The translations under genes were made by a program, and so were the position numbers. Source: Gracilariopsis chorda (Eukaryota > Rhodophyta > Florideophyceae > Gracilariales > Gracilariaceae). From it: DNA of 64,000 nucleotides. This document shows positions 33,901-61,567 of the stretch, piece by piece. How positions within the stretch are numbered: position 1 is the stretch's first letter; every line of letters starts with the position of its first letter. The stretch lies in assembly GCA_003194525.1 (NCBI GenBank), contig NBIV01000003.1, positions 62,001 to 126,000 on the forward strand, given 5' to 3'. The notes under the pieces are model-generated. The model was given only the letters and a program-made list of their open reading frames with translations. It was not told the origin of the DNA and searched no databases.

Positions 33901-33969
33901 ACAGCCATTTTGTCCAGATAGGGTCTCCAATCTCAACGTGCGCACCTTCTATGCAAAATAAAACTGCTA

Positions 33970-34093
33970 GTATTGCATGAAGCTTCAATGATCTCATTGA
34001 AGCTTTTTCAGCTCATGGATGCGTCTTTCAAAGATCTTTGGTGCAGTGGAATGGAGAACAAGCCTCCGTTTGGGGGCTTTATGATCTTTTTAT
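33970..34093 (+). pseudogene. Helitron/Pif1-type helicase remnant, left part
   Basis: The plus strand reads VLHEASMISLKLFQLMDASF and then KPPFGGFMIFL up to the array. This fits the Walker-B region of Helitron RepHel and Pif1 helicases (DEAxM, a conserved Asp, then PFGG); the first Asp is His here. The frame resumes after the 27.5-kb array at 61568 with SGDYSRMLPVLPQ, the GD-x-x-Q-x-LPV motif. No Rep domain or Walker A is seen in this fragment. Confidence 0.7.
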
Positions 34094-34997
34094 TGTAGTG
34101 CAATACCCGCAAGCGGGACAACACACGAAGACGTTCGGAATCTTCCCCTCTGGAGGGTAACACAGCGAACGGAGCCTCTCCGGATGAGCACGACGAAGTC
34201 GGGTTGTAAAGCCGAGGCTCACCCTCACGCCAAGCGGGGAGAGTTGAAACGGTAGGATTAGGATCACCACGAATGGGAAAGCAGCCCTTCCAAGGAGTAC
34301 GAGTCCACGTAAGTGGGGGAAGACGTCACGGGATACCGGCACGAGAGACACGCGTCAGCGGTGACGAGCAGCCACACAAAGGGGTAGGAACCACGAGAGT
34401 GGGGTAAGGGAAATACGGGGGATGCCCGACTGGGGGCGACAGGGGTGTGGGCCAACGGGACCACGGAAAAAAGTACAAAAGAAACCCTATACAGGGGCGA
34501 GAACACGGCGGTGGTGAATTAAGTGACAAGTGCCCAAGGCGGTGATACTCCTAGTGACGCAGGGTGGATAGGTCTACCGTTAGTAACGTGGCTTTACCTC
34601 CGAAGAGTGTAGAAGACTCGCGAAAGCCGAAAAGACTTAGACCGAAGAACCCCTGGTTGGGGAAGTTTACTCATTGTCAGGGCGAGGTCGCCGAGCCACT
34701 ATATAGTGTAGTAATCTCCCTACTGTAGCGTAGATAAATAAAAAATAATAAATATAAGTTAACTAAATGTCCACACCGTGGTGCCAACCTCCTCTTGACT
34801 ATCCGTGTCACACGTGGTCCATTCACGCCTTGGGCGGCACACGGCGCATGCACAGGTGTGCACCTGGCGCACAGCGCGGATCCGCTGAGGGCTGAGACAC
34901 CCGCTAATAGCGGTAGTAATCATAAACACGCGAAAGCGGCAAAAACACCAAGTCCACAGGGCATCGCTGAGTCTTCCTCCTTGAGGATTGCACTTCA
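34094..34997 (-). repeat. LTR1 of array (3' end of array)
   Basis: 904 bp, TGTAGTGCAATACC...GGATTGCACTTCA. It has variants GGATCCGCTGAGG and GGGCATCGC in common with LTR4 and the solo copy at 20288, but not with LTR2 and LTR3. Confidence 0.95.
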
Positions 34998-35009
34998 TAT
35001 CCCCCTCCT
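34998..35009 (-). other. Polypurine tract, unit 1
   Basis: On the minus strand AGGAGGGGGATA directly precedes the LTR; this is the plus-strand priming site in reverse transcription and confirms the minus orientation. Confidence 0.8.
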
Positions 35010-35257
35010 GAGGTGCGAATACGACATCCACGATGGCGACGGAAGCACCGGGCAAGGTCCTTAAATGTAAGTCCGGTTCGCCGGTTCTCCATCCCACTCT
35101 GGGTAACGAGCACCTAGCTGCGAACAGCGAATCTGCGACCAACTCTTCCGAGGTTCTTCCAACAACACATACGCTTTCGCGGCCTTCTTCTTTCCTTTCC
35201 TTTCCACACTGCAACTCGATCCTTCATTTCCTTCCTTCCACCGCAGTGGCTTGCTTA

Positions 35258-38200
35258 TCACACTTGGGCGTTTATCACCCATGCCGGGATTCCCGTTTGC
35301 GTTCTGCGATGATATGACACCACTTTCGAACGTGGGAGGTGCTCTATTGGCTCATCCGAATCATATTCGGGCCCGAAACCGTACCAGCGTACGCGGTACT
35401 GGATGTAACCCTCTGAATGGTAAGAATGTTCCACAATGTGGTCAACAACAAACTCCTGTTTGTAGACTTCCCGGCCTCGCCGTGTTCGCATTATCGCGTC
35501 CTGCACGGCGGGCTCTACCACCACTGGTGGGTGTTGGACAGTCTTCCCCGGAAGGGGCATGGCTTGGTACTGCCTGTCCATGCCCATAGAAAGGTCATTA
35601 ACCGGTTTCCGGGTAGGTTCATCCGCTTCGCGGGCCTGGAGGTCCTCGGCACGGCCGGTTGCGTCGACCACTTGATGGTGCGTATCGGGACCCTTGCTGT
35701 GGGTTAAAGTATCCCGCTTCGCAGTTTCTTCACTCCTTGAGGGGGCGTCTATTGAAGACACTTTTTGAGGGGCTTCTAACGCATCTGAAAGATGAGCATC
35801 TGGGTCGCGAACCACAGGTTTGTGTGTAGATATCCGTCTTGACGGGGGTGCTTCAGACGACGAAGTCAGTTGCGCCACGGTGCGTCGTACAGTACTCGTG
35901 GACTCGCCTCGGGCGGTAATTGGTGCCTTTGCCGTCCGTACGGTGTCCGGGTCACGTGCCGTTTGCAACGGATGGTCGAGGGTTGTCCGCGCCGTGTTGC
36001 GTTCCGCCTCCTCACGTGAAGGCGGTCGTAACGGTGCTGTCGGTGTGTTGTCTCACTTCGGCGACGAAATATTTCCGTCTTTGACGTGCTTTCCTTCCGG
36101 AGTGACCGGTGCGACTTCAGCGACACTGTCGGGATCAACCGAGACACTCGGAGTGAGTTCGCGACTGCGCGATGGTCCTAAACCAGAATCCAGCTTGCTG
36201 GTCGTTTTCTTTCCGTCCTGTACGGTGTGCTTGCCCGGCCTGGCCGGTGTGTTCTGCCGTGCAGTAGGAGTTACCACGTCCGGTGTAGTCGGCTCAGAGG
36301 ATCCCGCGAGGGCCTGCTCTGGATTATCCAGCGTAGCTGTTGTTGACGAACCGTGACCCACGGAATGCGGATCAACGCTCTACGGCACAGCCGGTTCAGT
36401 ATCGCGAACGCGAATAGTTGCCTGCAACGATTTCACTTTGGCGAGAGACTTCCCACTGCGTGGTGCATTTTGACGACTAGAATCCCGGTGGGGAGTGCGA
36501 TCTGGCGCAGATGCAGTAGAAATTCCTCGAGAGGGTTCAGCGGGAGCTGTAGCGCGCAAATGCGAAGATGGCACGTCAGTAGACGGAATTCTCGGTCCAC
36601 TATTGTCCTTTTCGATGTGTCCAGAGGTCCGTGCACCACGGTTGTCATGACGCGACGAATCGGTTTCAGTCTCTCGACGAGAGTTAGGGTTCTCCTCCCC
36701 CTCCTTAGACGGAGCGGCATGGGGAGTGGTAGAAGCGCCCAAACTGCGGGGATAGACACCGCGCGGTGGCGTTAGAGAAGAAAGGCCATTCGGGCCTGCG
36801 TCCGATAAGGACGGTATATCTGAGAGTCCCCTTGAAGGGTGTGGCAACACAGAAGGCCTGTTAACCACAGATGTGGGTTGTTCCACTGGGGTGTGTTGGT
36901 TCTCATCTTGGTAAGCAACCTCTACGGAAGGTGGCGGTGCCATAACAACGCGATCGCGGGAAATCCGCTCGTGAGCGTCGTTCATTTCCACCACTAAGGT
37001 GTCGTTATCCACTGATATGACCTTGTAGGGACCGTCCGCGACGGGTGAGAGCTTATGCCGTTTCTTCTTATCAGGGTTCCAGTGCTCCTTACGGACGTAG
37101 ACGTAGTCACCCTCCGTAATTGGCGGTGCTGTACCTCGTACGCGAGAGTCAAAATCACGCTTGTACGCGGCCTGTGCTCGTGCCATGGAGCTCCGGGCGA
37201 CCGGGATTAACTTCGTAAGCCACGCTTTCCATCGTTGGCGATAATCCTTCACGGAAGGGAAGTTTGCCAGCGTAGGCTGGGGTTCCAACGCTACGGCGGG
37301 CGGATGACGCGAAAGTACCAATTCAAATGGAGTCAAACCCGTTGTACGGTGTACCTATGTATTATACGCAAACGTCAAGGCGTCAGTGTACAAGTCCCAT
37401 GTTTTGGGGTGATCAGCAACGTAAGAACGGAGAGAGGCCAACAGCGTTCGGTTAAACCGCTCGACTTGCCCATTACACTGGGGGTGGTAGGTCGTTGTGA
37501 ACAGATTCTTGATATCGAGGATCCAACACACGTCCTCAAAGAATCGCGATGCGAATTGCTTTCCGTTATCGGATAGAATGTTAACCGGTGGTCTGTAGAC
37601 AAATACCCAATGGGTGACGAAGGCTTGCGCCACCGCGAAAGCGGATATCTTCCGTAAAGGTACGGTGCGAACCAACTTGGAGAAACGATCCGTGATAACG
37701 AGTAAAAACTTATGTCCACGCTTTGTGGTGAGCAGCGGTCCCAAGAGGTCAATTGCGACAAACTCGAGAGGGGCCCGTGCTGGGAATAACCTCAACTTCG
37801 TTGAGTGCTTCCGGAGTTTGACCCGGTTTTTGGCACACTCCGTGCATGACCGCACAGTCGCGTAGCAGTCCACAGCCATGGCCGGCCAATAGTAACTCCG
37901 TCGCAACGTGAGGTAAAGTTTCCGTCCACCGGCGTGTCCACCAAGTTTCGCATAGTGCGACAAGTGCAACACTCTAGATTGTAGAGTATGTGATACCACT
38001 ACCTGTGGGGTTGTTTGAACCGTCCTGACGAGGTATCCAACATCATTCACCTCGAAAGGGAGTTGCGCACCGCCATTAAGTCGGGCGCGAATCTGAGTAC
38101 AGAAGGGATCACCTTGTTGTTCTCTGACGATCTCCTCCGGGGGTATTGGCACGAAATTACCCGGTGGGGGTTTCTGAGCATCGTCCGAGACGAGTAGTGC

Positions 38201-40673
38201 GTCCAGTTCATCATCCGATTCCGGTTCTTCATCCTTGTTATCGGGTTCACGGTCCGGTTTCTCCGGTTCTCGACCGTTGACGACGAAGCAAGGAATGTCC
38301 TCGTCCCCAGCGGGTAGAGTTTCACGATCCGTGGGTAAACGCGACAGCGCGTCCGCCTGAGCGTTCTTTGTGCCCTTCTTGTAGATCACCTCGAAGTCGA
38401 ATTCCGCAAGGCGGAGCCTCCAACGCATTAAGTGGCCTGACGGTTCAGAGACTGTAATGAGCCATCGTAATGACGATTGATCCGTGTAAACGGTGAAGTG
38501 CACACCCATAAGATAGGGGCGAAGAGTGGAGAGTGCCCACACAACTGCAAGACACTCTTTCTCCGAGACGGAGTAATTCCGCTCGTGAACATTCAGTGAG
38601 CGTGACCAGTACCCAATAGGGGTTCGTTCTCCTTCGGGAGTTGTCTGAAAGAGAGCGCAACCTACTTGGTAGTCACTAGCATCCGTTTCTACGGTAAACG
38701 GTAGTCCGGGTTTCGGTAACGATAAGATCGGTGCTGATGTTACAGCCTCCTTGAGGGAGTTAAACGCCTTCGTCTCGACGGACGTAAAGGGTTCCAATTT
38801 TGGTGGTTGGCCTTTCCGCAAGAGCGCGTTCAAGGGTGCTGAGATATCCGCACAATTCGGTATAAACCGTCGATAGACGTTGACTAATCCTAGAAAGGAG
38901 CGTAGTTCCGTTTGAGTGGCGGGTTCCTTCGCTTGACGGAGCGACTTAACTCGAGCTTCCTCGATCATCACACGCCCAGGGCGGATTATGTGGCCCAGAT
39001 ACTTCACTGTATCTGTAAAGAACTCACATTTCCTCAACTTGAGAGTAACTCCAGCCTCACGTAGCGTGGTCATGGTATCTCTCACGTGTGTGAGGTGGTC
39101 ATCCAGATTATCTGAGAATACTATGATATCGTCCAGGTAGACGAGGCATGTACGCCATTTGAACCGAGCCAGTAGTATGTCGATAGCACGCTGGAAAGTA
39201 GCGGGAGCATTGGTCACACCAAAAGGCATCCGTTTGAAACGGTAGAGTCCGGAGTGACAGAAAAAAGCAGTCTTGTCGCGGTCCTGTTCCCTGACGGGCA
39301 CCTGCCAGTATCCCCAATTGGCGTCTAGGGCCGTGAAAACGGTAGCATTTCCGAGTGAATCGATGTACTCATCCATTCGTGGGATCGGGTACACATCCTT
39401 GATGGTTACGGCGTTCAGTCGACGGTAGTCGATGCAAAAGCGCCAGGATCCATCCGGTTTCGGAGCCAGTACCACTGGGGATGCCCACGGTGACTGAGCC
39501 GGTTCTATTACTCCAGCTCGGAGCATGTTTTCCACTTGGAATTCTTCCTCTTCTCGAGCTTTAGGGCCTGCCCTATAGGGATGCTGAGCGATCGGCCTGG
39601 TATCAGGTAGCAAGTCAATCCGGTGCTCCGTTGTAGTAATCTCTCCTAGGTAGCCATCCCACATCGTGGTGAAATTCCGTAGCATCTCACGGAGACGTTC
39701 ACGGTGCGATTCCGGCACATGACCGAGGTCAAGTTCCTCGAGTTCTTTCACGGGATCAATCCGGTCGTAACTCGTTGGAACCGGCTTAGCATCCGAGCAT
39801 TTCGGCATTTGGACGGCAGTGTCCTCCCCCTCCTTAGAGTGAACGAGACCGAGGACATCGGCGGCGGTCATTCTCGTGGGAACCATCGCGGTGGGGTGGG
39901 GCATTACCGAACCAATGACTTGGTTTTTCACCAGTGACTGGGGCGTAGAGCCTAGATTGGCGACCAGCACGTTGAACGGTTTATCGGGCTCAATTTTGAG
40001 CTACTCCATTCGCCACGGCGAGTTGATACCTATCATATAAGGATGAAAGGGGTTGAATTACTCGTAAAACGTGTTGACGGGAAGTGACTCGTACCCAAAA
40101 TTAGGATTCCGGTGGAAGTTGGACAGACGCGGCAACGCGGAGCTTTGTAGAGTCCCGGGAAGCCGGTGGGGGTTCCTGCGCAGCAGGTAATGGAACGTGC
40201 TTCTTCGAGGCACGTCGTAGAGGACGACGTACGATCGAAACGGAGGAGCCGTCTTCCATTTCCACACGTCTTAGACGGGGCCTGATGGCATCGACGAATC
40301 TGTCACAGAAGTCGCATCCCAAGATCAAAGGGGCGGCAAGTTTCCGACAAACAATAAAGTTGAGTTTCACAAGAAAGGAGCCAAGGCACACGACCAGGTC
40401 GATTGTCCCAACCGTTGATAACGGGTTATCATTCGCATCCGCGACATCCGGTATCACGCCATGGCGGATCTGAGACTGCAATGACAGTGGCAGGAGCGAC
40501 TCAACGATGAAGTTCGGGCCTGCACCTGTGTCCAAAACAGTGAGAACTCGCACCATAAACTGGGTGGAAAGGCCAAGGTCAGCATATACCTTGTAGTTTC
40601 TCTTGGCTATTACCAAAACTCTGTCCGGAAACCAGGTGGTTTCGAACACGTTTCCACGGTCGACGCAGAACAC
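35258..40673 (-). pseudogene. Pol of unit 1 (protease-RT-RNase H-integrase-chromodomain), broken
   Basis: The protease keeps DTGAG (LTVLDTGAGPNFIVES). A one-base T insertion near 40000 (CAATTTTGAG against CAATTTGAG in the other units) splits the protease from RT. RT, RNase H and most of the integrase are open from about 39970 to 37355: CIDYRRLNAVTIKDVYPIPR, YLDDIIVFSD, TDASDYQVG, GHAGGRKLYLTLRRSYYWPA, DNGKQFAS, TTYHPQCNGQVERFNR. There is a TAG after LTFAYNT shared by all units, a private TAG near 36380 and a stop near 36053 in a 129-bp segment found only in this unit. The chromodomain (EFVVDHIVEH...QYRVRWYGFG) lies at about 35300-35450 after a long Ser/Pro/Thr-rich linker. Confidence 0.93.
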
Positions 40674-40808
40674 TAAAGTTTTCAGAGTTCAAGTCTGAGA
40701 CGGCCTGTTTCCTAGTAAGGATTTTAACCGGGGAGCGAGGCAGTGACGCCTCGGGCGCCTTCGAACTCAACTCTGAGGGCGCCTCTCCCGTAGGGGAGAC
40801 TCTCGAAA

Positions 40809-42431
40809 TCAGTTTTCCTGAGCCCGTTCCGCCTGAGGCGGGGTCTCAGAATCCTTAACCACTAGCAGTGGAGCGCTAGCGGGGGTGTCTTGTCGAACAA
40901 GACGGGGGTTAGTGACCTGCTCAGCAGGGGAAAGCAACGCGTGTCGCGGGTTCGTATCCGGGATATTCCGGGGGAAGTCCGTCTTCGCTCGTAAGTACGA
41001 TGCAATCGGAACGGTCTGCTTCTCCGCTGGAGTAAGGGCTTCATAGTTACCGATCACTCGGGTTACTTCTCTCAAAGTGAGGATGCAGTCCGGTGAAATG
41101 TGACCGTGTTCGTAACATATGTGGCATATGACTCCAGAGCGTGGGGGCGGCTGACCGGAACGAGCATCCGTGTGTCTCACTGCTGGGCGGGTATCCTTCC
41201 ATCCGGGACGACTCTGCCGGAGGGCATCATTCGAATAGGAGATGCGAGGTCCGTGAACATGGGGTCCGTCAACATACAGCAGGGAATTCTCCTGAGCTGT
41301 GTCGTAGGACGCATCCGTCGTGGACAGCAGTTCCGTTGTTGGAATAGACTGAGCACCGGCCTGAGCGAGGTACACGTTATCGTAGTCCCTTGAAGGGCGT
41401 TCACTCGCTGCTAGCGATAAAGATGGTGAACTGGCTTCCATCATCAACGCCTTGGCGGGACGAGACTTCGATGCAGGGATACGAGCTCGAAGTGCATCAC
41501 CTTCCGCTTGCGCGTGTTGAATCAACTCCAGGTAGGTGGTGTTACGACGATCCTCCGATATCGGGCCACCAGCGTACGGATTGCCGGATCTAATCCATCG
41601 ATATACATGGTGCAGCGCTCTCCAGAGGAGTAAACATTGCCACACCTGTGGAAAGCCTTATTAAGGCGTACCGAGAATTTGGTTTCCGTCTCTCTAGATT
41701 TCTGGCGGGTATCGCGTAAAGCGAGAATAGCCGCTTGAATAGCGTTGTTCGTCGCGTAGGATCGCAAGAGGTACTGAACTGCTTCCGGCCAGCACATTAC
41801 ACGTCCTTCGGAGGCTCGGGAAGAACCTCTTACAGAGTTGTATTGATCCTCGGCGAGTCCACGTAGAAAATACGGTAGGGCAATAAACGCCTGTCCTTCG
41901 TTCATACCAAGTATGTCCGCTTCGGAAACGAACGTTCCGAGGAAGTCTAACACCAATATGGGATCCTCTCTAGAAAAGAACTGGTTACGAAGGGAAAGCT
42001 GCATACGCTTTATGCAGTCCTTCACCTTACCCGTACCACGGGGTGTACGATCCAATGAGGAGTCCTCAAGCCGATAATATCGGTACGATACCAACCTCTT
42101 GTAGAGGGGATTAGTACATTTGAGTTCCCTCAATCCTAAGTGTTTCCTCCCCTTCCTCCGGGGGCGAATCACACCTTGGGTGGACGAAGACCGTTTAGAA
42201 TGGGACGGGCGTCGGCGACGATCATCGTCCGACGAAGAATCCGACGACACCGAACCATCAGAATGGCGAGAATCCTGTGAAGACAGGGAGGAATCCCACG
42301 AGTCGGGATCGTGCTTGGGCTGCTTCTTACGAGTGCGGCGGGTAGAATCTTTCTTCTCGCGCTTCGCTTTTTTTCGAGACAGCAGCGGCCTCACCCGGGA
42401 CGTTGTCATCCATCAAGATAGTTTGCTCCAA
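40809..42431 (-). pseudogene. Gag of unit 1, frameshifted
   Basis: The same Gag as in units 2 and 3 but with two single-base changes: an extra T near 42370 (a run of seven T against six), which disconnects the MEQTILMDD start, and a missing C near 41550 (CCTCCGATATC against CCTCCCGATATC). The zinc knuckle CHICYEHGHISPDC is present. Unlike units 2 and 3, its C-terminus runs on for about 23 residues (ASAPLLVVKDSETPPQ), so it keeps the longer end. Confidence 0.9.
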
Positions 42432-42436
42432 CGTCC

Positions 42437-42959
42437 TCAGACGGCACTGACACGATCAAATCTGGTTTCCACATTCTCAACATAGTTGGAAGGGCCACCA
42501 AAACATTCCAACACAGTGTTGACATCTGCCCTTAAAAGGCGAATGTCCTCAGCCAAATCCTTCATAGAAGAGGTATCAAACCTGACACGCAGGACGTCAA
42601 ACTCTTCCACGAGGGTATTGTGTGCTTCACGCACCTCATCAAGCTGCGCTTGGACACTAGGGGGGCGTCGGTATCGGGTTCTCCCCTCCGGGGTGCAGCT
42701 ACATCGGCAGAAGCCGGTCGACACCAGAGTTGGGAGCGTCCTTCAACGCCTTAGGCGGGGGTTTCTGGGCTCTCGACGAGTCTTGGCCCTTCGACTTGCC
42801 TTTCAAAGTGGCACGTCGAGGGTGGCCAGCGGGGACCTTCGAGATCTCTGCCTGTTCCACGTCACTGACGGAACGACTCCGCGTGACAACGGGTTCGGCG
42901 GAGGATGGTCGCCAAGACATGTGTAGGCCAAAAACTCCCACGAAGTGGTAAGAAACCAA
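42437..42959 (-). pseudogene. Gag N-terminal/leader region of unit 1
   Basis: Two overlapping minus-strand frames: a basic one (RPSSAEPVVTRSRSVSDVEQ, KGKSKGQDSSRAQKPPPK) and a coiled-coil-like one (AQLDEVREAHNTLVEEFDVL, DLAEDIRLLRADVNTVLE) that stops just before the Gag start. In unit 3 the second part is in frame with Gag, so they are probably pieces of a longer Gag N-terminus separated by single-base indels. Confidence 0.6.
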
Positions 42960-43014
42960 AAGTTTGGACAGTGAATCTCCGAGGAGAGGTAATACAAAAC
43001 CTAACCGTTTCCGA

Positions 43015-43032
43015 TTCTAGGTCGGGAGACCA
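43015..43032 (-). other. Primer binding site, unit 1
   Basis: On the minus strand TGGTCTCCCGACCTAGAA starts 3 nt after the LTR end, as expected for a tRNA-primed PBS (TGG pairs with CCA). The priming tRNA was not identified; neither tRNA in the window fits. Confidence 0.7.
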
Positions 43033-43035
43033 CTT

Positions 43036-43939
43036 TGTAGTGCAATAACCGCAAGCGGGACAACACACGAAGACGTTCGGAATCTTCCCCTCTGGAGGGT
43101 AACACAGCGAACGGAGCCTCTCCGGATGAGCACGACGAAGTCGGATTGTAAAGCCGAGGCTCACCCTCACGCCAAGCGGGGAGAGTTGAAACGGTAGGAT
43201 TAGGATCACCACGAATGGGAAAACAGCCCTTGCAAGGAGTACGAGTCCACGTAAGTGGGGGAAGACGTCACGGGATACCGGCACGAGAGACACGCGTCAG
43301 CGGTGACGAGCAGCCACACAAAGGGGTGGGAACCACGAGAGTGGGGTAAGGGAAATACGGGGGATGCCCGACTGGGGGCGACAGGGGTGTGGGCCAACGG
43401 GACCACGGAAAAAAGTACAAAAGAAACCCTATACAGGGGCGAGAACACGGCGGTGGTGAATTAAGTGACAAGTGCCCAAGGCGGTGATACTCCTAGTGAC
43501 GCAGGGTGGATAGGTCTACCGTTAGTAACGCGGCTTTACCTCCGAGGTGTGTAGAAGACTCGCGAAAGCCGAAAAGACTTAGAGCCAAGAACCCCTGGTT
43601 GGGGAAGTTTACTCAGTGTCAGGGCGAGGTCGCCGAGCCACTATATAGTGTAGTAATCTCCCTACTGTAGCGTAGATAAATAATAAATAATAAATATAAG
43701 TTAACTAAATGTCCAAACCGTGGTGCCAACCTCCTCTTGACTATCCGTGTCACACGTGGTCCACTCACGCCTTGGGCGGCACACGGCGCATACACAGGTG
43801 TGCACCTGGCGCACAGCGCGGATCTGCTGAGGGCTGAGACACCCGCTAATAGCGGTAGTAATCATAAACACGCGAAAGCGGCAAAAACACCAAGTCCACA
43901 GGTCATCGCTGAGTCTTCCTCCTTGAGGATTGCACTTCA
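43036..43939 (-). repeat. LTR2 of array
   Basis: 904 bp, shared between units 1 and 2. No difference from LTR3 was found in the parts compared. Both carry GGATCTGCTGAGG, GGTCATCGC and ATACACAGGTG, absent from LTR1 and LTR4. Confidence 0.95.
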
Positions 43940-43951
43940 TATCCCCCTCCT
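43940..43951 (-). other. Polypurine tract, unit 2
   Basis: AGGAGGGGGATA on the minus strand, next to LTR2. Confidence 0.8.
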
Positions 43952-44199
43952 GAGGTGTGAATACGACATCCACGATGGCGACGGAAGCACCGGGCAAGGT
44001 CCTTAAATGTAAGTCCGGTTCGCCGGTTCTCCATCCCACTCTGGGTAACGAGCACCTAGCTGCGAACAGCGAATCTGTGACCAACTCTTCCGAGGTTCTT
44101 CCAACAACACATACGCTTTCGCGGCCTTCTTCTTTCCTTTCCTTTCCACACCACAACTCGATCCTTCATTTCCTTCCTTCCACCGCAGTGGCTTGCTTA

Positions 44200-49673: not shown

Positions 49674-51242
49674 CTAGCAGTGGAGCTCTGGGGGGGTGTC
49701 TTGTCGAACAAGACGGGGGTTAGTGATCTGCTCAGCAGGGGAAAGCAACGCGTGTCGCGGGTTCGTATCCGGGATATTCCGGGGGAAGTCCGTCTTCGCT
49801 CGTAAGTACGATGCAATCGGAACGGTCTGCTTCTCCGCTGGAGTAAGGGCTTCATAGTTACCGATCACTCGGGTTACTTCTCTCAAAGTGAGGATGCAGT
49901 CCGGTGAAATGTGACCGTGTTCGTAACATATGTGGCATATGACTCCAGAGCGTGGGGGCGGCTGACCGGAACGAGCATCCGTGTGTCTCACCGCTGGGCG
50001 GGTATCCTTCCATCCGGGACGACTCTGCCGGAGGGCACCATTCGAATAGGTGATGCGAGGTCCGTGAACACGGGGTCCGTCAACATACAGCAGGCAATTC
50101 TCCTGAGCTGTGTCGTAGGACGCATCCGTCGTGTACGGCAGTTCCGTTGTTGGAATAGACTGAGCACCGGCCTGAGCGAGGTACACGTTATCGTAGTACT
50201 TTGAAGGGCGTCCACTCGCTGCTAGCGATAAAGATGGTGAACTGGCTTCCATCATCAACGCCTTGGCGGGACGAGACTTCGATGCAGGGATACGAGCTCG
50301 AAGTGCATCACCATCCGCTTGCGCGTGTTGAATCAACTCCAGGTAGGTGGTGTTACGACGATCCTCCCGATATCGGGCCACCAGCGTACGGATTGCCGGA
50401 TCTAATCCATCGATATACATGGTGCAGCGCTCTCCAGAGGAGTAAACATTGCCACACCTGTGGAAAGCCTTATTAAGGCGTACCGAGAATTTGGTTTCCG
50501 TCTCTCTAGATTTCTGGCGGGTATCGCGTAAAGCGAGAATAGCCGCTTGAATAGCGTTGTTCGTCGCGTAGGATCGCAAGAGGTACTGAACTGCTTCCGG
50601 CCAGCACATTACACGTCCTTCGGAGGCTCGGGAAGAACCTCTTACAGAGTTGTATTGATCCTCGGCGAGTCCACGTAGAAAATACGGTAGGGCAATAAAC
50701 GCCTGTCCTTCGTTCATACCAAGTATGTCCGCTTCGGAAACGAACGTTCCGAGGAAGTCTAACACCAATATGGGATCCTCTCTAGAAAAGAACTGGTTAC
50801 GAAGGGAAAGCTGCATACGCTTTATGCAGTCCTTCACCTTACCCGTACCACGGGGTGTACGATCCAATGAGGAGTCCTCAAGCCGATAATATCGGTACGA
50901 TACCAACCTCTTGTAGAGGGGATTAGTACATTTGAGTTCCCTCAATCCTAAGTGTTTCCTCCCCTTCCTCCGGGGGCGAATCACACCTTGGGTGGACGAA
51001 GACCGTTTAGAATGGGACGGGCGTCGGCGACGATCATCGTCCGACGAAGAATCCGACGACACCGAACCATCAGAATGGCGAGAATCCTGTGAAGACAGGG
51101 AGGAATCCCACGAGTCGGGATCGTGCTTGGGCTGCTTCTTACGAGTGCGGCGGGTAGAATCTTTCTTCTCGCGCTTCGCTTTTTTCGAGACAGCAGCGGC
51201 CTCACCCGGGACGTTGTCATCCATCAAGATAGTTTGCTCCAA
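49674..51242 (-). pseudogene. Gag of unit 2 (522 residues, altered C-terminus)
   Basis: Starts MEQTILMDDNVPGE, then a Lys/Arg-rich and Ser/Asp-rich segment (SDGSVSSDSSSDDDRRRRP), a capsid-like region (FFSREDPILVLDFLGTF, YFLRGLAEDQY, LLRSYATNNAIQAAILALRD) and a CCHC zinc knuckle CHICYEHGHISPDC at residues 436-449. It stops at PPELHC because of a one-base loss near 49692 shared with unit 3; unit 1 reads further. Otherwise it is an open frame, so a Gag product is conceivable. Confidence 0.88.
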
Positions 51243-51247
51243 CGTCC

Positions 51248-51770
51248 TCAGACGGCACTGACACGATCAAATCTGGTTTCCACATTCTCAACATAGTTGG
51301 AAGGGCCACCAAAACATTCCAACACAGTGTTGACATCTGCCCTTAAAAGGCGAATGTCCTCAGCCAAATCCTTCATAGAAGAGGTATCAAACCTGACACG
51401 CAGGACGTCAAACTCTTCCACGAGGGTATTGTGTGCTTCACGCACCTCATCAAGCTGCGCTTGGACACTAGGGGGGCGTCGGTATCGGGTTCTCCCCTCC
51501 GGGGTGCAGCTACATCGGCAGAAGCCGGTCGACACCAGAGTTGGGAGCGTCCTTCAACGCCTTAGGCGGGGGTTTCTGGGCTCTCGACGAGTCTTGGCCC
51601 TTCGACTTGCCTTTCAAAGTGGCACGTCGAGGGTGGCCAGCGGGGACCTTCGAGATCTCTGCCTGTTCCACGTCACTGACGGAACGACTCCGCGTGACAA
51701 CGGGTTCGGCGGAGGATGGTCGCCAAGACATGTGTAGGCCAAAAACTCCCACGAAGTGGTAAGAAACCAA
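51248..51770 (-). pseudogene. Gag N-terminal/leader region of unit 2
   Basis: The same two pieces as in unit 1 (basic segment; coiled-coil segment), separated by a one-base difference at about 51529 and stopped before Gag by another near 51256. Confidence 0.6.
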
Positions 51771-51825
51771 AAGTTTGGACAGTGAATCTCCGAGGAGAGG
51801 TAATACAAAACCTAACCGTTTCCGA

Positions 51826-51843
51826 TTCTAGGTCGGGAGACCA
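51826..51843 (-). other. Primer binding site, unit 2
   Basis: TGGTCTCCCGACCTAGAA on the minus strand, 3 nt from LTR3. Confidence 0.7.
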
Positions 51844-51846
51844 CTT

Positions 51847-52750
51847 TGTAGTGCAATAACCGCAAGCGGGACAACACACGAAGACGTTCGGAATCTTCCC
51901 CTCTGGAGGGTAACACAGCGAACGGAGCCTCTCCGGATGAGCACGACGAAGTCGGATTGTAAAGCCGAGGCTCACCCTCACGCCAAGCGGGGAGAGTTGA
52001 AACGGTAGGATTAGGATCACCACGAATGGGAAAACAGCCCTTGCAAGGAGTACGAGTCCACGTAAGTGGGGGAAGACGTCACGGGATACCGGCACGAGAG
52101 ACACGCGTCAGCGGTGACGAGCAGCCACACAAAGGGGTGGGAACCACGAGAGTGGGGTAAGGGAAATACGGGGGATGCCCGACTGGGGGCGACAGGGGTG
52201 TGGGCCAACGGGACCACGGAAAAAAGTACAAAAGAAACCCTATACAGGGGCGAGAACACGGCGGTGGTGAATTAAGTGACAAGTGCCCAAGGCGGTGATA
52301 CTCCTAGTGACGCAGGGTGGATAGGTCTACCGTTAGTAACGCGGCTTTACCTCCGAGGTGTGTAGAAGACTCGCGAAAGCCGAAAAGACTTAGAGCCAAG
52401 AACCCCTGGTTGGGGAAGTTTACTCAGTGTCAGGGCGAGGTCGCCGAGCCACTATATAGTGTAGTAATCTCCCTACTGTAGCGTAGATAAATAATAAATA
52501 ATAAATATAAGTTAACTAAATGTCCAAACCGTGGTGCCAACCTCCTCTTGACTATCCGTGTCACACGTGGTCCACTCACGCCTTGGGCGGCACACGGCGC
52601 ATACACAGGTGTGCACCTGGCGCACAGCGCGGATCTGCTGAGGGCTGAGACACCCGCTAATAGCGGTAGTAATCATAAACACGCGAAAGCGGCAAAAACA
52701 CCAAGTCCACAGGTCATCGCTGAGTCTTCCTCCTTGAGGATTGCACTTCA
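51847..52750 (-). repeat. LTR3 of array
   Basis: 904 bp, lying exactly 8,811 bp from LTR2 and without differences from it in the parts compared. Confidence 0.95.
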
Positions 52751-52762
52751 TATCCCCCTCCT
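52751..52762 (-). other. Polypurine tract, unit 3
   Basis: AGGAGGGGGATA on the minus strand, next to LTR3. Confidence 0.8.
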
Positions 52763-53010
52763 GAGGTGTGAATACGACATCCACGATGGCGACGGAAGCA
52801 CCGGGCAAGGTCCTTAAATGTAAGTCCGGTTCGCCGGTTCTCCATCCCACTCTGGGTAACGAGCACCTAGCTGCGAACAGCGAATCTGTGACCAACTCTT
52901 CCGAGGTTCTTCCAACAACACATACGCTTTCGCGGCCTTCTTCTTTCCTTTCCTTTCCACACCACAACTCGATCCTTCATTTCCTTCCTTCCACCGCAGT
53001 GGCTTGCTTA

Positions 53011-56000
53011 TCACACTTGGGCGTTTATCACCCATGCCGGGATTCCCGTTTGCGTTCTGCGATGATATGACACCACTTTCGAACGTGGGAGGTGCTCTAT
53101 TGGCTCATCCGAATCATATTCGGGCCCGAAACCGTACCAGCGTACGCGGTACTGGATGTAACCCTCTGAATGGTAAGAATGTTCCACAATGTGGTCAACA
53201 ACAAACTCCTGTTTGTAGACTTCCCGGCCTCGCCGTGTTCGCATTATCGCGTTCTGCACGGCAGGCTCTACCACCACTGGTGGGTGTTGGACAGTCTTCC
53301 CCGGAAGGGGCATGGCTTGGTACTGCCTGTCCATGCCCATAGAAAGGTCATTAACCGGTTTCCGGGTAGGTTCATCCGCTTCGCGGGCCTGGAGGTCCTC
53401 GGCACGGCCGGTTGCGTCGACCACTTGATGGTGCGTATCGGGACCCTTGCTGTGGGTTAAAGTATCCCGCTTCGCAGTTTCTTCACTCCTTGAGGGGGCG
53501 TCTATTGAAGACACTTTTTGAGGGGCTTCTAACGCATCTGAAAGATGAGCATCTGGGTCGCGAACCACAGGTTTGTGTGTAGATATCCGTCTTGACGGGG
53601 GTGCTTCAGACGACGAAGTCGGTTGCGCCACGGTGCGTCGTACAGTACGCGTCGACTCGCCTCGGGCGGTAATTGGTGCCTTTGCCGTCCGTACGGTGTC
53701 CGGGTCACGTGCCGTTTGCAACGGATGGTCGAGGGTTGTCCGCGCCGTGTTGTCGGGATCAACCGAGACACTCGGAGTGAGTTCGCGACTGCGCGATGGT
53801 CCTAAAACAGAATCCAGCTTGCTGGTCTTTTTCCTTCCGTCCTGTACGGTGTGCTTGCCCGGCCTGGCCGGTGTGTTCTGCCGTGCAGTAGGAGTTACCA
53901 CGTCCGGTGTAGTCGGCTCAGAGGATGCCGTGAGGGCCTGCTCTGGATTATCCAGCGTAGCTGTTGTTGACGAACCGTGACCCACGGAATGCGGATCAAC
54001 GCTCGACGGCACAGCCGGTTCAGTATCGCGAACGCGAATAGTTGCCTGCAACGATTTCACTTTGGTGAGAGACTTCCCACTGCGTGGTGCATTTTGACGA
54101 CTAGAATCCCGGTGGGGAGTGCGATCTGGCGCAGATGCGGTAGAAATTCCTCGAGAGGGTTCAGCGGGAGCTGTAGCGCGCAAATGCGAAGATGGCACGT
54201 CAGTAGACGGAATTCTCGGTCCACTATTGTCCTTTTCGATGTGTCCGGAGGTCCGTGCACCACGGTTTTCATGACGCGACGAAGCGGTTTCAGTCTCTCG
54301 ACGAGAGTTAGGGTTCTCCTCCCCCTCCTTAGACGGAGCGGCATGGGGAGTGGTAGAAGCGCCCAAACTGCGGGGATAGACACCGCGCGGTGGCGTTAGA
54401 GAAGAAAGGCCATTCGGGCCTGCGTCCGATAAGGACGGTATATCTGAGAGTCCCCTTGAAGGGTGTGGCAACACAGAAGGCCTGTTAACCACAGATGTAG
54501 GTTGTTCCACTGGGGTGTGTTGGTTCTCATCTTGGTAAGCAACCTCTACGGAAGGTGGCGGTGCCATAAAAACGCGATCGCGGGAAATCCGCTCGTGAGC
54601 GTCGTTCATTTCCACCACTAAGGTGTCGTTATCCACTGATATGACCTTGTAGGGACCGTCCGCGACGGGTGAGAGCTTATGCCGTTTCTTCTTATCAGGG
54701 TTCCAGTGCTCCTTACGGACGTAGACGTAGTCACCCTCCGTAATTGGCGGTGCTGTACCTCGTACGCGAGAGTCAAAATCACGCTTGTACGCGGCCTGTG
54801 CTCGTGCCATGGAGCTCCGGGCGACCGGGATTAACTTCGTAAGCCACGCTTTCCATCGTTGGCGATAATCCTTCACGGAAGGGAAGTTTGCCAGCGTAGG
54901 CTGGGGTTCCAACGCTACGGCGGGCGGATGACGCGAAAGTACCAATTCAAATGGAGTCAAACCCGTTGTACGGTGTACCTATGTATTATACGCAAACGTC
55001 AAGGCGTCAGTGTACAAGTCCCATGTTTTGGGGTGATCAGCAACGTAAGAACGGAGAGAGGCCAACAGCGTTCGGTTAAACCGCTCGACTTGCCCATTAC
55101 ACTGGGGGTGGTAGGTTGTTGTGAACAGATTCTTGATATCGAGGATCCAACACACGTCCTCAAAGAATCGCGATGCGAATTGCTTTCCGTTATCGGATAG
55201 AATGTTAACCGGTGGTCTGTAGACAAATACCCAATGGGTGACGAAGGCTTGCGCCACCGCGAAAGCGGATATCTTCCGTAAAGGTACGGTGCGAACCAAC
55301 TTGGAGAAACGATCCGTGATAACGAGTAAAAACTTATGTCCACGCTTTGTGGTGAGCAGCGGTCCCAAGAGGTCAATTGCGACAAACTCGAGAGGGGCCC
55401 GTGCTGGGAATAACCTCAACTTCGTTGAGTGCTTCCGGAGTTTGACCCGGTTTTTGGCACACTCCGTGCATGACCGCACAGTCGCGTAGCAGTCCACAGC
55501 CATGGCCGGCCAATAGTAACTCCGTCGCAACGTGAGGTAAAGTTTCCGTCCACCGGCGTGTCCACCAAGTTTCGCATAGTGCGACAAGTGCAACAATCTA
55601 GATTGTAGAGTATGTGATACCACTACCTGTGGGGTTGTTTGAACCGTCCTGACGAGGTATCCAACATCATTCACCTCGAAAGGGAGTTGCGCACCGCCAT
55701 TAAGTCGGGCGCGAATCTGAGTACAGAAGGGATCACCTTGTTGTTCTCTGACGATCTCCTCCGGGGGTATTGGCACGAAAGTACCCGGTGGGGGTTTCTG
55801 AGCATCGTCCGAGACGAGTAGTGCGTCCAGTTCATCATCCGATTCCGGTTCTTCATACTTGTTATCGGGTTCACGGTCCGGGTTCTCCGGTTCTCGACCG
55901 TTGACGACGAAGCAAGGAATGTCCTCGTCCCCAGCGGGTAGAGTTTCACGATCCGTGGGTAAACGCGACAGCGCGTCCGCCTGAGCGTTCTTTGTGCCCT

Positions 56001-58296
56001 TCTTGTAGATCACCTCGAAGTCGAATTCCGCAAGGCAGAGCCTCCAACGCATTAAGCGGCCTGACGGTTCAGAGACTGTAATGAGCCATCGTAATGACGA
56101 TTGATCCGTGTAAACGGTGAAGTGCACACCCATAAGATAGGGGCGAAGAGTGGAGAGTGCCCACACAACTGCAAGACACTCTTTCTCCGAGACGGAGTAA
56201 TTCCGCTCGTGAACATTCAGTGAGCGTGACCAGTACCCAATAGGGGTTCGTTCTCCTTCGGGAGTTGTCTGAAAGAGAGCGCAACCTACTTGGTAGTCAC
56301 TAGCATCCGTTTCTACGGTAAACGGTAGTCCGGGTTTCGGTAACGATAAGATCGGTGCTGATGTTACAGCCTCCTTGAGGGAGTTAAACGCCTTCGTCTC
56401 GACGGACGTAAAGGGTTCCAATTTTGGTGGTTGGCCTTTCCGCAAGAGCGCGTTCAAGGGTGCTGAGATATCCGCACAATTCGGTATAAACCGTCGATAG
56501 ACGTTGACTAATCCTAGAAAGGAGCGTAGTTCCGTTTGAGTGGCGGGTTCCTTCGCTTGACGGAGCGACTTAACTCGAGCTTCCTCGATCATCACACGCC
56601 CAGGGCGGATTATGTGGCCCAGATACTTCACTTTATCTGTAAAGAACTCACATTTCCTCAACTTGAGAGTAACTCCAGCCTCACGTAGCGTGGTCATGAT
56701 ATCTCTCACGTGTGTGAGGTGGTCATCCAGATTATCTGAGAATACTATGATATCGTCCAGGTAGACGAGGCATGTACGCCATTTGAACCGAGCCAGTAGT
56801 ATGTCGATAGCACGCTGGAAAGTAGCGGGAGCATTGGTCAAACCAAAAGGCATCCGTTTGAAACGGTAGAGTCCTGAGTGACAGAAAAAAGCAGTCTTGT
56901 CGCGGTCCTGTTCCCTGACGGGCACCTGCCAGTATCCCCAATTGGCGTCTAGGGCCGTGAAAACGGTAGCATTTCCGAGTGAATCGATGTACTCATCCAT
57001 TCGTGGGATCGGGTACACATCCTTGATGGTTACGGCGTTCAGTCGACGGTAGTCGATGCAAAAGCGCCAGGATCCATCCGGTTTCGGAGCCAGTACCACT
57101 GGGGATGCCCACGGTGACTGAGCCGGTTCTATTACTCCAGCTCGGAGCATCTTTTCCACTTGGAATTCTTCCTCTTCTCGAGCTTTAGGGCCTGCCCTAT
57201 AGGGATGCTGAGCGATCGGCCTGGTATCAGGTAGCAAGTCAATCCGGTGCTCCGTTGTAGTAATCTCCCTTAGGTAGCCATCCCACATCGTGGTGAAATT
57301 CCGTAGCATCTCATGGAGACGTTCACGGTGCGATTCCGGCACATGACCGAGGTCAAGTTCCTCGAGTTCTTTCACGGGATCAATCCGGTCGTAACTCGTT
57401 GGAACCGGCTTACCATCCGAGCATTTCGGCATTTGGACGGCAGTGTCCTCCCCCTCCTTAGAGTGAACGAGACCGAGGACATCTGCGGCGGTCATTCTCG
57501 TGGGAACCATCGCGGTGGGGTGGGGCATTACCGAACCAATGTCTTGGTTTTTCACCAGTGACTGGGGCGTAGAGCCTAGATTGGCGACCAGCACGTTGAA
57601 CGGTTTATCGGGCTCAATTTGAGCTACTCCATTCGCCACGGCGAGTTGATACCTATCATATAAGGATGAAAGGGGTTGAATTACTCGTAAAACGTGTTGA
57701 CGGGAAGTGATTCGTACCCAAAATTGGGATTCCGGTGGAAGTTGGACAGAGGCGGCAACGCGGAGCTTTGTAGAGTCCCGGGAAGCCGGTGGGGATTCCT
57801 GCGCAGCAGGTAATGGAACGTGCTTCTTCGAGGCACGTCGTAGAGGACGACGTACGATCGAAACGGAGGAGCCGTCTTCCATTTCCACACGTCTTAGACG
57901 AGACCTGATGGCATCGACGAATCTGTCACAGAAGTCGCATCCCAAGATCAAAGGGGCGGCAAGTTTCCGACAAACAATAAAGTTGAGTTTCACAAGAAAA
58001 GAGCCAAGGCACACGACCAGGTCGATTGTCCCAACCGTTGATAACGGGTTATCATTCGCATCCGCGACATCCGGTATCACGCCATGGCGGATCTGAGACT
58101 GCAACGACGGTGGCAGGAGCGACTCAACGATGAAGTTCGGGCCTGCAACTGTGTCCAAAACAGTGAGAACTCGCACCATAAACTGGGTGGAAAGGCCAAG
58201 GTCAGCATATACCTTGTAGTTTCTCTTGGCTATTACCAAAACTCTGTCCGGAAACCAGGTGGTTTCGAACACGTTTCCACGGTCGACGCAGAACAC
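53011..58296 (-). pseudogene. Pol of unit 3, longest frame (TAG in integrase, DTV protease)
   Basis: This unit has the best-preserved pol. 1,105 codons run from a GTG at 58296 to the TAG at 54979-54981, then 649 codons follow in the same frame to 53011. The protease carries DTVAG at residues 48-50 (Gly to Val). The RT YLDD starts at residue 512; RNase H (TDASDYQVG), the HHCC zinc-binding region (GHAGGRKLYL...CTECAKNRV) and the integrase core (FVAIDLLGPL, DNGKQFAS, HPQCNGQVERFNR) follow. The TAG stands where related integrases have Gln in AYNTQVH. After it come TPFELVLSRHPP, a Ser/Pro/Thr-rich linker and a chromodomain at about residues 585-634 of the second part. Chromodomains of this class steer integration to modified histones (family knowledge). 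Confidence 0.94.
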
Positions 58297-58484
58297 TAAA
58301 GTTTTCAGAGTTCAAGTCTGAGACGGCCTGTTTCCTAGTAAGGATTTTAACCGGGGAGCGAGGCAGTGACGCCTCGGGCGCCTTCGAACTCAACTCTGAG
58401 GGCGCCTCTCCCGTAGGGGAGACTCCCGAAATCAGTTTTCCTGAGCCCGTTCCGCCTGGGGCGGGGTCTCAGAATCCTGAACCA

Positions 58485-60053
58485 CTAGCAGTGGAGCTCT
58501 GGGGGGGTGTCTTGTCGAACAAGACGGGGGTTAGTGATCTGCTCAGCAGGGGAAAGCAACGCGTGTCGCGGGTTCGTATCCGGGATATTCCGGGGGAAGT
58601 CCGTCTTCGCTCGTAAGTACGATGCAATCGGAACGGTCTGCTTCTCCGCTGGAGTAAGGGCTTCATAGTTACCGATCACTCGGGTTACTTCTCTCAAAGT
58701 GAGGATGCAGTCCGGTGAAATGTGACCGTGTTCGTAACATATGTGGCATATGACTCCAGAGCGTGGGGGCGGCTGACCGGAACGAGCATCCGTGTGTCTC
58801 ACCGCTGGGCGGGTATCCTTCCATCCGGGACGACTCTGCCGGAGGGCACCATTCGAATAGGTGATGCGAGGTCCGTGAACACGGGGTCCGTCAACATACA
58901 GCAGGCAATTCTCCTGAGCTGTGTCGTAGGACGCATCCGTCGTGTACGGCAGTTCCGTTGTTGGAATAGACTGAGCACCGGCCTGAGCGAGGTACACGTT
59001 ATCGTAGTACTTTGAAGGGCGTCCACTCGCTGCTAGCGATAAAGATGGTGAACTGGCTTCCATCATCAACGCCTTGGCGGGACGAGACTTCGATGCAGGG
59101 ATACGAGCTCGAAGTGCATCACCATCCGCTTGCGCGTGTTGAATCAACTCCAGGTAGGTGGTGTTACGACGATCCTCCCGATATCGGGCCACCAGCGTAC
59201 GGATTGCCGGATCTAATCCATCGATATACATGGTGCAGCGCTCTCCAGAGGAGTAAACATTGCCACACCTGTGGAAAGCCTTATTAAGGCGTACCGAGAA
59301 TTCGGTTTCCGTCTCTCCAGATTTCTGGCGGGTATCGCGTAAAGCGAGAATAGCCGCTTGAATAGCGTTGTTCGTCGCGTAGGATCGCAAGAGGTACTGA
59401 ACCGCTTCCGGCCAGCACGTTACACGTCCTTCGGAGGCTCGGGAAGAACCTCTTACAGAGTTGTATTGATCCTCGGCGAGTCCACGTAGAAAATACGGTA
59501 GGGCAATAAACGCCTGTCCTTCGTTCATACCAAGTATGTCCGCTTCGGAAACGAACGTTCCGAGGACGTCTAACACCAATATGGGATCCTCTCTAGAAAA
59601 GAACTGGTTACGAAGGGAAAGCTGCATACGCTTTATGCAGTCCTTCACCTTACCCGTACCACGGGGTGTACGATCCAATGAGGAGTCCTCAAGCCGATAA
59701 TATCGGTACGATACCAACCTCTTGTAGAGGGGATTAGTACATTGGAGTTCCCTCAATCCTAAGTGTTTCCTCCCCTTCCTCCGGGGGCGAATCACACCTT
59801 GGGTGGACGAAGACCGTGTAGAATGGGACGGGCGTCGGCGACGATCATCGTCCGACGAAGAATCCGACGACACCGAACCATCAGAATGGCGAGAATTCTG
59901 TGAAGACAGGGAGGAATCCCACGAGTCGGGATCGTGCTTGGGCTGCTTCTTACGAGTGCGGCGGGTAGAATCTTTCTTCTCGCGCTTCGCTTTTTTCGAG
60001 ACAGCAGCGGCCTCACCCGGGACGTTGTCATCCATCAAGATAGTTTGCTCCAA
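58485..60053 (-). pseudogene. Gag of unit 3 (522 residues, altered C-terminus)
   Basis: Nearly identical to the Gag of unit 2, with a few substitutions (for example VLDVLGTF for VLDFLGTF and GETETEFS for RETETKFS). It has the CCHC knuckle at 436-449 and the same early stop PPELHC. Upstream, the frame is continuous through RVSARLRTLEQTILMDD, unlike units 1 and 2, until a TGA at about 60125. Confidence 0.88.
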
Positions 60054-60119
60054 CGTCCTCAGACGGGCACTGACACGATCAAATCGGGTTTCAACAATCT
60101 CAACATATTTGGCAGGGCC

Positions 60120-60583
60120 ACCAAATCATTCCAACACAGTGTTGACATCCGCCCTTAAAAGGCGAATGTCTTCAGCCAAATCCTTCATAGAAGAGGTATC
60201 AAACCTGAAACGCAGGACTTCCAACCCCTCCACGAGGGTATTGTGTGCTTCACGCACCTCATCAAGCTGCGCTTGGACACTAGGGGGGCGTCGGTATCGG
60301 GTTCTCCCCTCCGGGGTGCAGCTACATCGGCAGAAGCCGGGTCGACACCAGAGTTGGGAGCGTCCTTCAACGCCTTAGGCGGGGGTTTCTGGGCTCTCGA
60401 CGAGTCTTGGCCCTTCGACTTGCCTTTCAAAGTGGCACGTCGAGGGTGGCCAGCGGGGACCTTCGAGATCTCTGCCTGTTCCACGTCACTGACGGAACGA
60501 CTCCGCGTGACAACGGGTTCGGCAGAGGATGGTCGCCGAGACATGTGTAGGCCAAAAACTCCCACGAAGTGGTAAGAAACCAA
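60120..60583 (-). pseudogene. Gag N-terminal/leader region of unit 3
   Basis: The basic segment (RPSSAEPVVTRSRSVSDVEQ) continues here through GVDPASADVAAPRRGEPDTD because of one extra G near 60342 compared with unit 2. The coiled-coil segment follows in another frame and carries a TGA where units 1 and 2 have a Cys codon (LECFGG). Confidence 0.6.
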
Positions 60584-60638
60584 AAGTTTGGACAGTGAAT
60601 GTCCGAGGAGAGGTAATACAAAACCTAACCGTTTCCGA

Positions 60639-60656
60639 TTCTAGGTCGGGAGACCA
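60639..60656 (-). other. Primer binding site, unit 3
   Basis: TGGTCTCCCGACCTAGAA on the minus strand, 3 nt from LTR4. Confidence 0.7.
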
Positions 60657-60659
60657 CTT

Positions 60660-61562
60660 TGTATTGCAATACCCGCAAGCGGGGTAACACACGAAGACGT
60701 TCGGAATCTTCCCCTCTGGAGGGTAACACAGCGAACGGAGCCTCTCCGGATGAGCACGACGAAGTTGGGTTGTAAAGCCGAGGCTCACCCTCACGCCAAG
60801 CGGGGAGAGTTGAAACGGTAGGATTAGGATCACCACGAATGGGAAAACAGCCCTTGCAAGGAGTACGAGTCCACGTAAGTGGGGGAAGACGTCACGGGAT
60901 ACCGGCACGAGAGACACGCGTCAGCGGTGACGAGCAGCCACACAAAGGGATAGGAACCACGAGAGTGGGGTAAGAGAAATACGGGGGATGCCTGACTGGG
61001 GGCGACAGGGGTGTGGGCCAACGGGACCACGGAAAAAGGTACAAAGGAACCCTATACAGGGGCGAGAACACGGCGGTGGTGAATTAAGTGACAAGTGCCC
61101 AAGGCGGTGATACTCCTAGTGACGCAGGGTGGATAGGTCTACCGTTAGTAACGCGGCTGTACCTCCGAGGAGTGTAGAAGACTCGCGAAAGCCGAAAAGA
61201 CTTAGAGCCAAGAACCCCTGGTTCGGGAACTTTACTCAGTGTCAGGGCGAGGTCGCCGAGCCACTCTATAGTGTAGTAATCTCCGTACTGTAGCGTAGAT
61301 AAATAATAAATAATAAACATAAGTTAACTAAATGTCCACACCGTGGTGCCAACCTCCTCTTGACTATCCGTGTCACACGTGGTCCACTCACGCCTTGGGC
61401 GGCACACGGCGTATGCAAAGGTGTGCACCTGGCGCGCAGCGCGGATCCGCTGAGGGCTGAGACACCCGCTAATAGCGGTAGTAATCATAAACACGCGAAA
61501 GCGGCAAAAACACCAAGTCCACAGGGCATCGCTGAGTCTTCCTCCTTGAGGATTGCACTTAA
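60660..61562 (-). repeat. LTR4 of array (5' end of array)
   Basis: 903 bp. It starts TGTATTGCAATACC (one change from LTR1) and ends TTGCACTTAA, so the terminal CA is changed to AA. The next bases, TTTAT, complete the target-site duplication. Confidence 0.93.
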
Positions 61563-61567
61563 TTTAT

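Follow-up and report, generated by a model that had tools for sequence, protein, structure and literature searches.

A three-unit tandem array of a chromovirus in the red alga Gracilariopsis chorda, very probably grown from one insertion by two unequal crossovers

In the genome of the red alga Gracilariopsis chorda, a long terminal repeat (LTR) retrotransposon is present, at the level of the assembly, as a 27.5-kb array in which four LTRs (903-904 bp) alternate with three internal regions (~8 kb each). The array occupies positions 34089..61567 of a 64,000-nucleotide stretch of contig NBIV01000003.1, referred to here as the window and corresponding to C3:62001-126000 of the searched genome (91.3-Mb assembly, 1081 contigs). 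Very probably, one insertion followed by two unequal crossovers built this three-unit array. The evidence comprises an intact target site, a chimeric middle unit and the order in which an inner LTR takes after one outer LTR and then the other.

Self-comparison and LTR alignment recovered the LTR-I-LTR-I-LTR-I-LTR arrangement that a preliminary description of this DNA had proposed. The LTRs follow each other at start-to-start spacings of 8942, 8811 and 8813 bp, and all four LTRs and three internal regions share one orientation. The parts of the array, in window coordinates, are as follows.

34089..34093, no strand: left copy of the target-site duplication (TSD) TTTAT; unoccupied relatives of the target cross the join here
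34094..34997, minus strand: LTR1, the left outer LTR and the 3' LTR in the sense of the element, with the polypurine tract (PPT) at its right
34998..35013, minus strand: PPT of unit 1, with further copies at 43940-43955 and 52751-52766; the same junction was searched genome-wide
34998..43035, minus strand: internal region of unit 1, A-type over its whole length, with open frames interrupted at several points
43017..43032, minus strand: primer-binding site (PBS) of unit 1, which recurs at 51828-51843 and 60641-60656
43036..43939, minus strand: LTR2, an inner LTR with the PBS on one side and the PPT on the other, identical to LTR3
43940..51846, minus strand: internal region of unit 2, by column comparison of the units a chimera, B left of the switch and A right of it
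51847..52750, minus strand: LTR3, an inner LTR identical to LTR2
52751..60659, minus strand: internal region of unit 3, which is B-type, with open reading frames (ORFs) 53011-54960, 54979-58296 and 58485-60053
60660..61562, minus strand: LTR4, the right outer LTR and the 5' LTR in the sense of the element, with the PBS at its left
61563..61567, no strand: right copy of TTTAT, at the outer edge

A common PBS flank adjoins LTR2, LTR3 and LTR4 at the left, and a common PPT flank adjoins LTR1, LTR2 and LTR3 at the right; from these positions it follows that the element lies on the minus strand. Besides the PPT and the 5-bp target duplication, the array shows the TG...CA ends of LTR retrotransposons, except that LTR4 ends in AA instead of CA (61561-61562). 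The same AA end is seen in the outer 5' LTR of an element on C257 (near 110170), which is either a coincidence or an end-joining habit. The structure is that of a tandem array: the inner LTRs are common to neighbouring units, both of them pass from PBS to PPT without a TSD, and TTTAT is found in the outer flanks only, as had been stated earlier. LTR2 and LTR3 are identical (0/904 differences) and share eight substitutions that are missing from LTR1, LTR4 and a solo LTR of the family at 20288..21190, which bears out the earlier remark on variants private to the inner pair.

That the whole 27.5 kb goes back to one insertion at an intact target can be read from the flanking DNA, which is a relic of a repeated sequence.

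33828..34093, plus strand: target sequence to the left of the insertion, belonging to a relic of a PIF1-helicase-like repeat that resumes at 61568-62737

Searches with the two flanks match adjoining places elsewhere in the genome, e.g., C78:272909-273174 together with C78:273177-274345, and C287:88539-88804 together with 87368-88536. When the flanks are joined with one TTTAT, they align at ~74.5% identity and with no gap at the join to three distinct unoccupied sites, one in C99 and two in C381; because these relatives read across the join, there was one insertion site, and judged by them no sequence was lost there. One relative of the target encodes a PIF1-like helicase (E 2.9e-19), and the window's own small ORFs in the array flanks gave no Pfam match. 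The PIF1-helicase-like sequence also recurs as tandem copies (C99:8961-21472, C1:224880-242050, C381, C121, C167 and C163), with a copy spacing of ~1.8-2.2 kb in C99, C381, C121 and C167.

The history that we propose starts with a short-form Ty3/gypsy chromovirus, which inserted once in the PIF1-like relic, on the minus strand, and gave rise to the TTTAT duplication; the two LTRs of this single element would then have diverged. In the first step, for which few sites are available here, out-of-register pairing of LTRs between two chromatids or homologues and a crossover within the LTR would have yielded LTR1-A-LTRm-B-LTR4, with an inner LTR (LTRm) that is part LTR4-type and part LTR1-type. Units A and B would subsequently have diverged by ~1.2%, B losing 129 bp. 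In the second step, for which support is strong, two chromatids would have paired with unit B opposite unit A, and a crossover in the internal region would have produced LTR1-A-LTRm-(B/A chimera)-LTRm-B-LTR4, so that LTR2 and LTR3 would be copies of a single inner LTR; few changes would have followed.

The second step is placed by a single switch in the affinities of unit 2.

50313..50492, no strand: second-crossover interval (unit 1 coordinates 41502-41680), holding the single switch

Up to 41502, unit 2 sides with unit 3 (17 LTR and 61 internal substitutions), and from 41680 on it sides with unit 1 (24 substitutions, none opposing). A single switch thereby fits 102 of the 108 substitutions that group unit 2 with either neighbour, and none of 20000 shuffles did as well. 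Left of the switch, units 2 and 3 differ at 9 of 7329 bases, while right of it units 1 and 2 do not differ at all (0/1355); by comparison, units 1 and 3 differ at 108 of 8810 bases overall, and A and B at 91 of 7906 internal sites (~1.2%). The sequence pattern strongly supports a middle unit that is a chimera, formed by crossover of misaligned units within the internal region. A second step by LTR-LTR crossover was considered and rejected, as no switch falls within any LTR and LTR2 and LTR3 are identical; this identity is explained by the second crossover having copied the single inner LTR. Separately, unit 3 departs from units 1 and 2 by 13 substitutions within ~140 bp (60086-60228), most of which are changes in unit 3.

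Just such a chimera would also result if the real array had two units, or if the alleles differed, and a wrong join of similar reads had made a third unit. The assembly does seem to hold some sites twice: the LTRs at C194:113497-114400 and C362:1003-1910 are identical and adjoin the same bases on different contigs, and some sites are therefore probably doubled as uncollapsed haplotypes. Such an error would leave the two-unit state secure, given the differences between A and B and the 129 bp that separate them. Moreover, three substitutions in unit 2 occur in neither neighbour, and unit 3 has six private substitutions left of the switch, so that no unit is a plain copy of another; two-unit arrays are present at two other loci as well, though in the same assembly. 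An assembly error in the third unit is quite unlikely, and it is the main alternative that remains for the array.

The first step makes a prediction about the polarity of the inner LTR. If an element with diverged LTRs is doubled by LTR-LTR crossover, its inner LTR should be, in the orientation of the window, first of the right-outer type and then of the left-outer type. The sites counted were those derived in the inner LTR and in one outer LTR, the other outer LTR agreeing with at least 90% of 35 family LTRs. In the C3 array described here, LTR position 197 is common to LTR4 and position 379 to LTR1, i.e., the order is right, then left.

43232..43414, no strand: first-crossover interval as placed in LTR2 (LTR1 34290-34472)

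Pairing of PBS and PPT junctions disclosed two further arrays of the family, each of two units, at C73:224800-245000 (L045-L047) and C98:38400-61150 (L048-L050). In C73, six right-type sites are followed by three left-type sites (RRRRRRLLL, switch 629-781), and a polymorphic column that was dropped (512) agrees by eye with this order; in C98, twelve right-type sites are followed by one left-type site (switch 886-899). The C98 array has the duplication ATGTT at both ends, and none is readable at C73 because the right LTR is truncated there. The predicted order is thus found in three of three arrays with none opposing, and under random order the joint chance is 1 in 2184 (2 x 84 x 13; own arithmetic). 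As sequence evidence for LTR-LTR crossover, the order is strong in C73, good in C98 and slight in C3. A query with the inner LTR (best 40 of 978 candidates) returned both inner LTRs of the C3 array, and not those of C73 or C98.

This order bears directly on the other route to an array, in which a concatemer, arising by read-through RNA, template switching or cDNA recombination, is inserted ready-made and its units diverge later. A single outer duplication fits such an insertion, the 17 of 903 sites that differ between LTR1 and LTR2 of C3 come near the unit-to-unit divergence, and the literature leaves the mechanism of comparable structures open (PMC11899658, in the passages on their origin). 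However, the LTRs of a concatemer are identical at insertion, so that no derived states common to only one outer LTR are expected; there are nine such sites in C73, thirteen in C98 and two in C3, all in crossover order. The units of C98 are nearly identical (7 of 4901 compared sites differ, against 107/4901 in C73), though its outer LTRs differ by 3.1% (28/903), from which it follows that duplication came long after insertion. The chimeric middle unit is left unexplained as well. Since the inner LTR recombines outer LTRs that had already diverged, and does so in the predicted order, LTR-LTR crossover is favoured for the first step, and a concatemer is very unlikely. The preliminary description had named both routes for the growth of the array; its LTR-LTR crossing-over is thus favoured for the first step and fails for the second, which is placed within the internal region. 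Its suggestion that the inner LTR-internal unit was duplicated holds in that the second crossover does copy such a unit, which explains why LTR2 equals LTR3.

The outer LTRs of the C3 array likewise differ at 28 of 903 sites, and the copies arising from the second event differ at 9 of 8684 (summed). Insertion, doubling and tripling would accordingly be placed roughly at 3.1%, 1.2% and 0.1% divergence.

Several observations weigh against this reconstruction. Six of the 108 substitutions, all left of the switch, group unit 1 with unit 2; set against nine other copies, four of them are changes in unit 3 and two are polymorphic, and some gene conversion may lie behind them. Furthermore, a single-base indel at 42368, right of the switch, groups unit 2 with unit 3. 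The first step in C3 has one informative site per side (34290 and 34472), a third site (34482) agreeing with the order but being polymorphic in the family (10/35), and the left-type part of C98 is one site (899). A strict clock fails because of an excess of private changes in LTR4, with ~20 as compared to 8 in LTR1 and 8 in LTR2/3. Finally, outer-LTR divergence is higher in the three arrays (3.10, 3.26 and 3.10%) than in eight single elements (0.78-1.99%; exact Mann-Whitney p 0.006), a result to be expected of arrays that form in old insertions; this age comparison may, however, be biased, since five of the eight single elements were taken from a list in order of likeness to LTR1, which favours little-changed LTRs.

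The six contrary substitutions could also be small conversion tracts in a different history, in which B was simply duplicated to give the third unit and the right end of the middle unit was later replaced with A sequence by gene conversion, a process reported to occur between LTR elements (PMC4921805). Two events would be required by this history, whereas a single crossover accounts at once for the additional unit and for a chimera with one sharp switch, and we regard it as unlikely in comparison with crossover between misaligned units.

The three units go back to a common parent. Set against 12-14 other copies, they form one clade in six of seven pieces (support 0.994-1.0); the remaining piece has 193 bp and too few changes. 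For these trees, a copy was dropped from a piece where less than 60% of the piece matched, 12-14 of 14 copies being kept. In addition, A and B have 54 derived sites in common that none of the 12-14 other copies shares, and the four array LTRs form a clade against 35 others (support 0.855). Judged by these comparisons, none of the family copies compared is as close to any of the three units as these are to one another. This leaves hardly any room for an origin from two independent elements, nested or neighbouring, that were joined by recombination. The ~1.2% difference between units and the presence of the short form at five other loci would suit two elements; the sister relation of A and B, the single TSD and the target without loss speak against them, and we disfavour this origin as extremely improbable. 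One integration followed by tandem growth, as had been proposed beforehand, is upheld by the single TSD, the unoccupied relatives of the target and the mutual closeness of the units.

By its domain content, the array element is a Ty3/gypsy chromovirus, in agreement with the label it had been given. The ORF 54979-58296 of unit 3 has the Pfam domains, in this order, RVT_1 (3.2e-38), RT_RNaseH (1e-36), Integrase_H2C2 (3.8e-13) and rve (3.5e-09), comprising reverse transcriptase (RT), RNase H and integrase, and a chromodomain (PF00385) is located in the ORF after the integrase ORF (in unit 3, ORF 53011-54960), at 26.4 bits in unit 1 (cut-off 25.1) and just below the cut-off, at 24.5 bits, in units 2 and 3. 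The gag-like ORF 58485-60053 has a zinc knuckle at sub-threshold level only (E 0.59). Reading frames are interrupted in all three units. The best protein match of an RT-bearing ORF is from Agarophyton chilense (75% identity over 80%).

Two deletions distinguish the units from other copies or from each other.

35183..35191, no strand: junction of the ~1.8-kb deletion that defines the short form; the same junction is in units 2 and 3
35999..36127, no strand: ~129 bp kept in unit 1 and deleted in units 2 and 3, by unit alignment

An LTR search of the genome (best 40 of 334 candidates) gave at least nine further LTR pairs 10.0-10.8 kb apart, and ~1.8 kb present in nine longer copies is missing from all three array units. 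That this deletion is private to the array was considered and rejected, as a genome search gave the identical junction at five other loci, three of which are complete single elements (C5, C177 and C57). The deletion marks a short-form subfamily; consequently, the array began as a short-form element, and the case for one parent rests on the trees and the shared derived sites. The ~129-bp stretch is kept in 12 of 14 other copies, L032 and L039 having deletions of their own there. A 20-base pattern derived from the PBS has two genome matches (C117 and C119), and at these places its complement may form the 3' end of a candidate tRNA-like gene. To the eye, the sequence at C117:81310-81387 (L059 41-118), with a 3' end complementary to the PBS, resembles a tRNA that carries additional stretches in the manner of intron-bearing tRNAs; it received no ARAGORN call and reaches 15.3 bits with the Rfam tRNA model (cut-off 29; E 0.82).

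Concerning frequency, a listing that is complete for up to two mismatches holds 83 PPT-LTR junctions, seven of them in the three arrays, which by hand count from these junctions makes 3 of 79 loci tandem. For a related family with 28 exact junctions, no contig has two. The first list held 27 family LTR loci outside the C3 array, five of them without PBS and PPT; four of these five have an exact 5-bp duplication and are solo LTRs, the reciprocal kind of product. One is in the window.

20288..21190, plus strand: solo LTR of the family, a product of the reciprocal kind but away from the array site, with TSD ATTTC at 20283-20287 and 21191-21195; orientation opposite to the array

At C75:10735-11771, a family LTR is directly followed by a 131-bp piece which is 73% identical and starts like another LTR.

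The locus belongs to a known kind, i.e., tandem LTR-retrotransposon arrays. Tandem structures have been described in rice, Arabidopsis, almond and cotton in a 2025 study (PMC11899658, Mob DNA), which, in its passages on origin, could not decide between complex insertion and recombination. The array resembles these plant structures, as there described, in its shared inner LTRs and one 5-bp TSD, in belonging to the gypsy type that prevails there, and in a unit number that varies; it differs in having three units and in lying in an algal genome, and in this case the mechanisms can be told apart by inner-LTR polarity and the chimeric unit. Arrays of Cassandra, a terminal-repeat retrotransposon in miniature (TRIM), show the same alternation of LTR and internal region, and unequal exchange is proposed there for the unit number, with recombination or template switching for the initial three-LTR array (PMC7215508, in the parts dealing with arrays); Cassandra is small and non-coding, whereas the array has 8.8-kb coding-type units. 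The tandem arrangement of the Wukong TRIM in maize, again a miniature element and in this unlike the present one, is read as a sign of unequal crossing over (PMC4528315). In kangaroo centromeres, the proposed origin of tandem retroelements is LTR-to-LTR recombination, either between chromatids or between homologues, as cited in PMC11899658. From titles and abstracts in the literature, no tandem LTR array of Gracilaria or other red algae was recognised, which is not proof of absence, and no test of inner-LTR order is described in the titles or abstracts found, most of the papers being judged by these. New are the three-unit record of two distinguishable events and the polarity test repeated at two further loci.

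Tandem LTR arrays are reported to be common in plant genomes, with recombination versus ready-made insertion unsettled in the 2025 study (PMC11899658). Inner-LTR polarity and chimeric inner units together provide a test of the route which needs one assembled genome only. The polarity test indicates recombination in three of three arrays, orders the steps in relative time and is usable on any long-read assembly. It is possible, albeit doubtful, that no array of this family forms before insertion, that LTR-LTR crossover gives rise to each of them, and that the long internal regions become the substrate once there are two units; the locus would then be at an early stage in the change of a coding retrotransposon into an 8.8-kb satellite-like repeat, with the unit number varying in the population.

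Elsewhere in the window, a dispersed ~830-bp repeat has four copies (760-1590, 18445-19264, 22096-22931 and 32789-33555) that are 84-92% identical. Two tRNA-Thr genes (8882-8954 and 9971-10043) are 98.6% identical and lie in opposite orientation, with a tRNA-Pro nearby at 11453-11525. The ORF 11969-12799 has a caspase domain (Peptidase_C14, 1.5e-18) and is probably a metacaspase gene.

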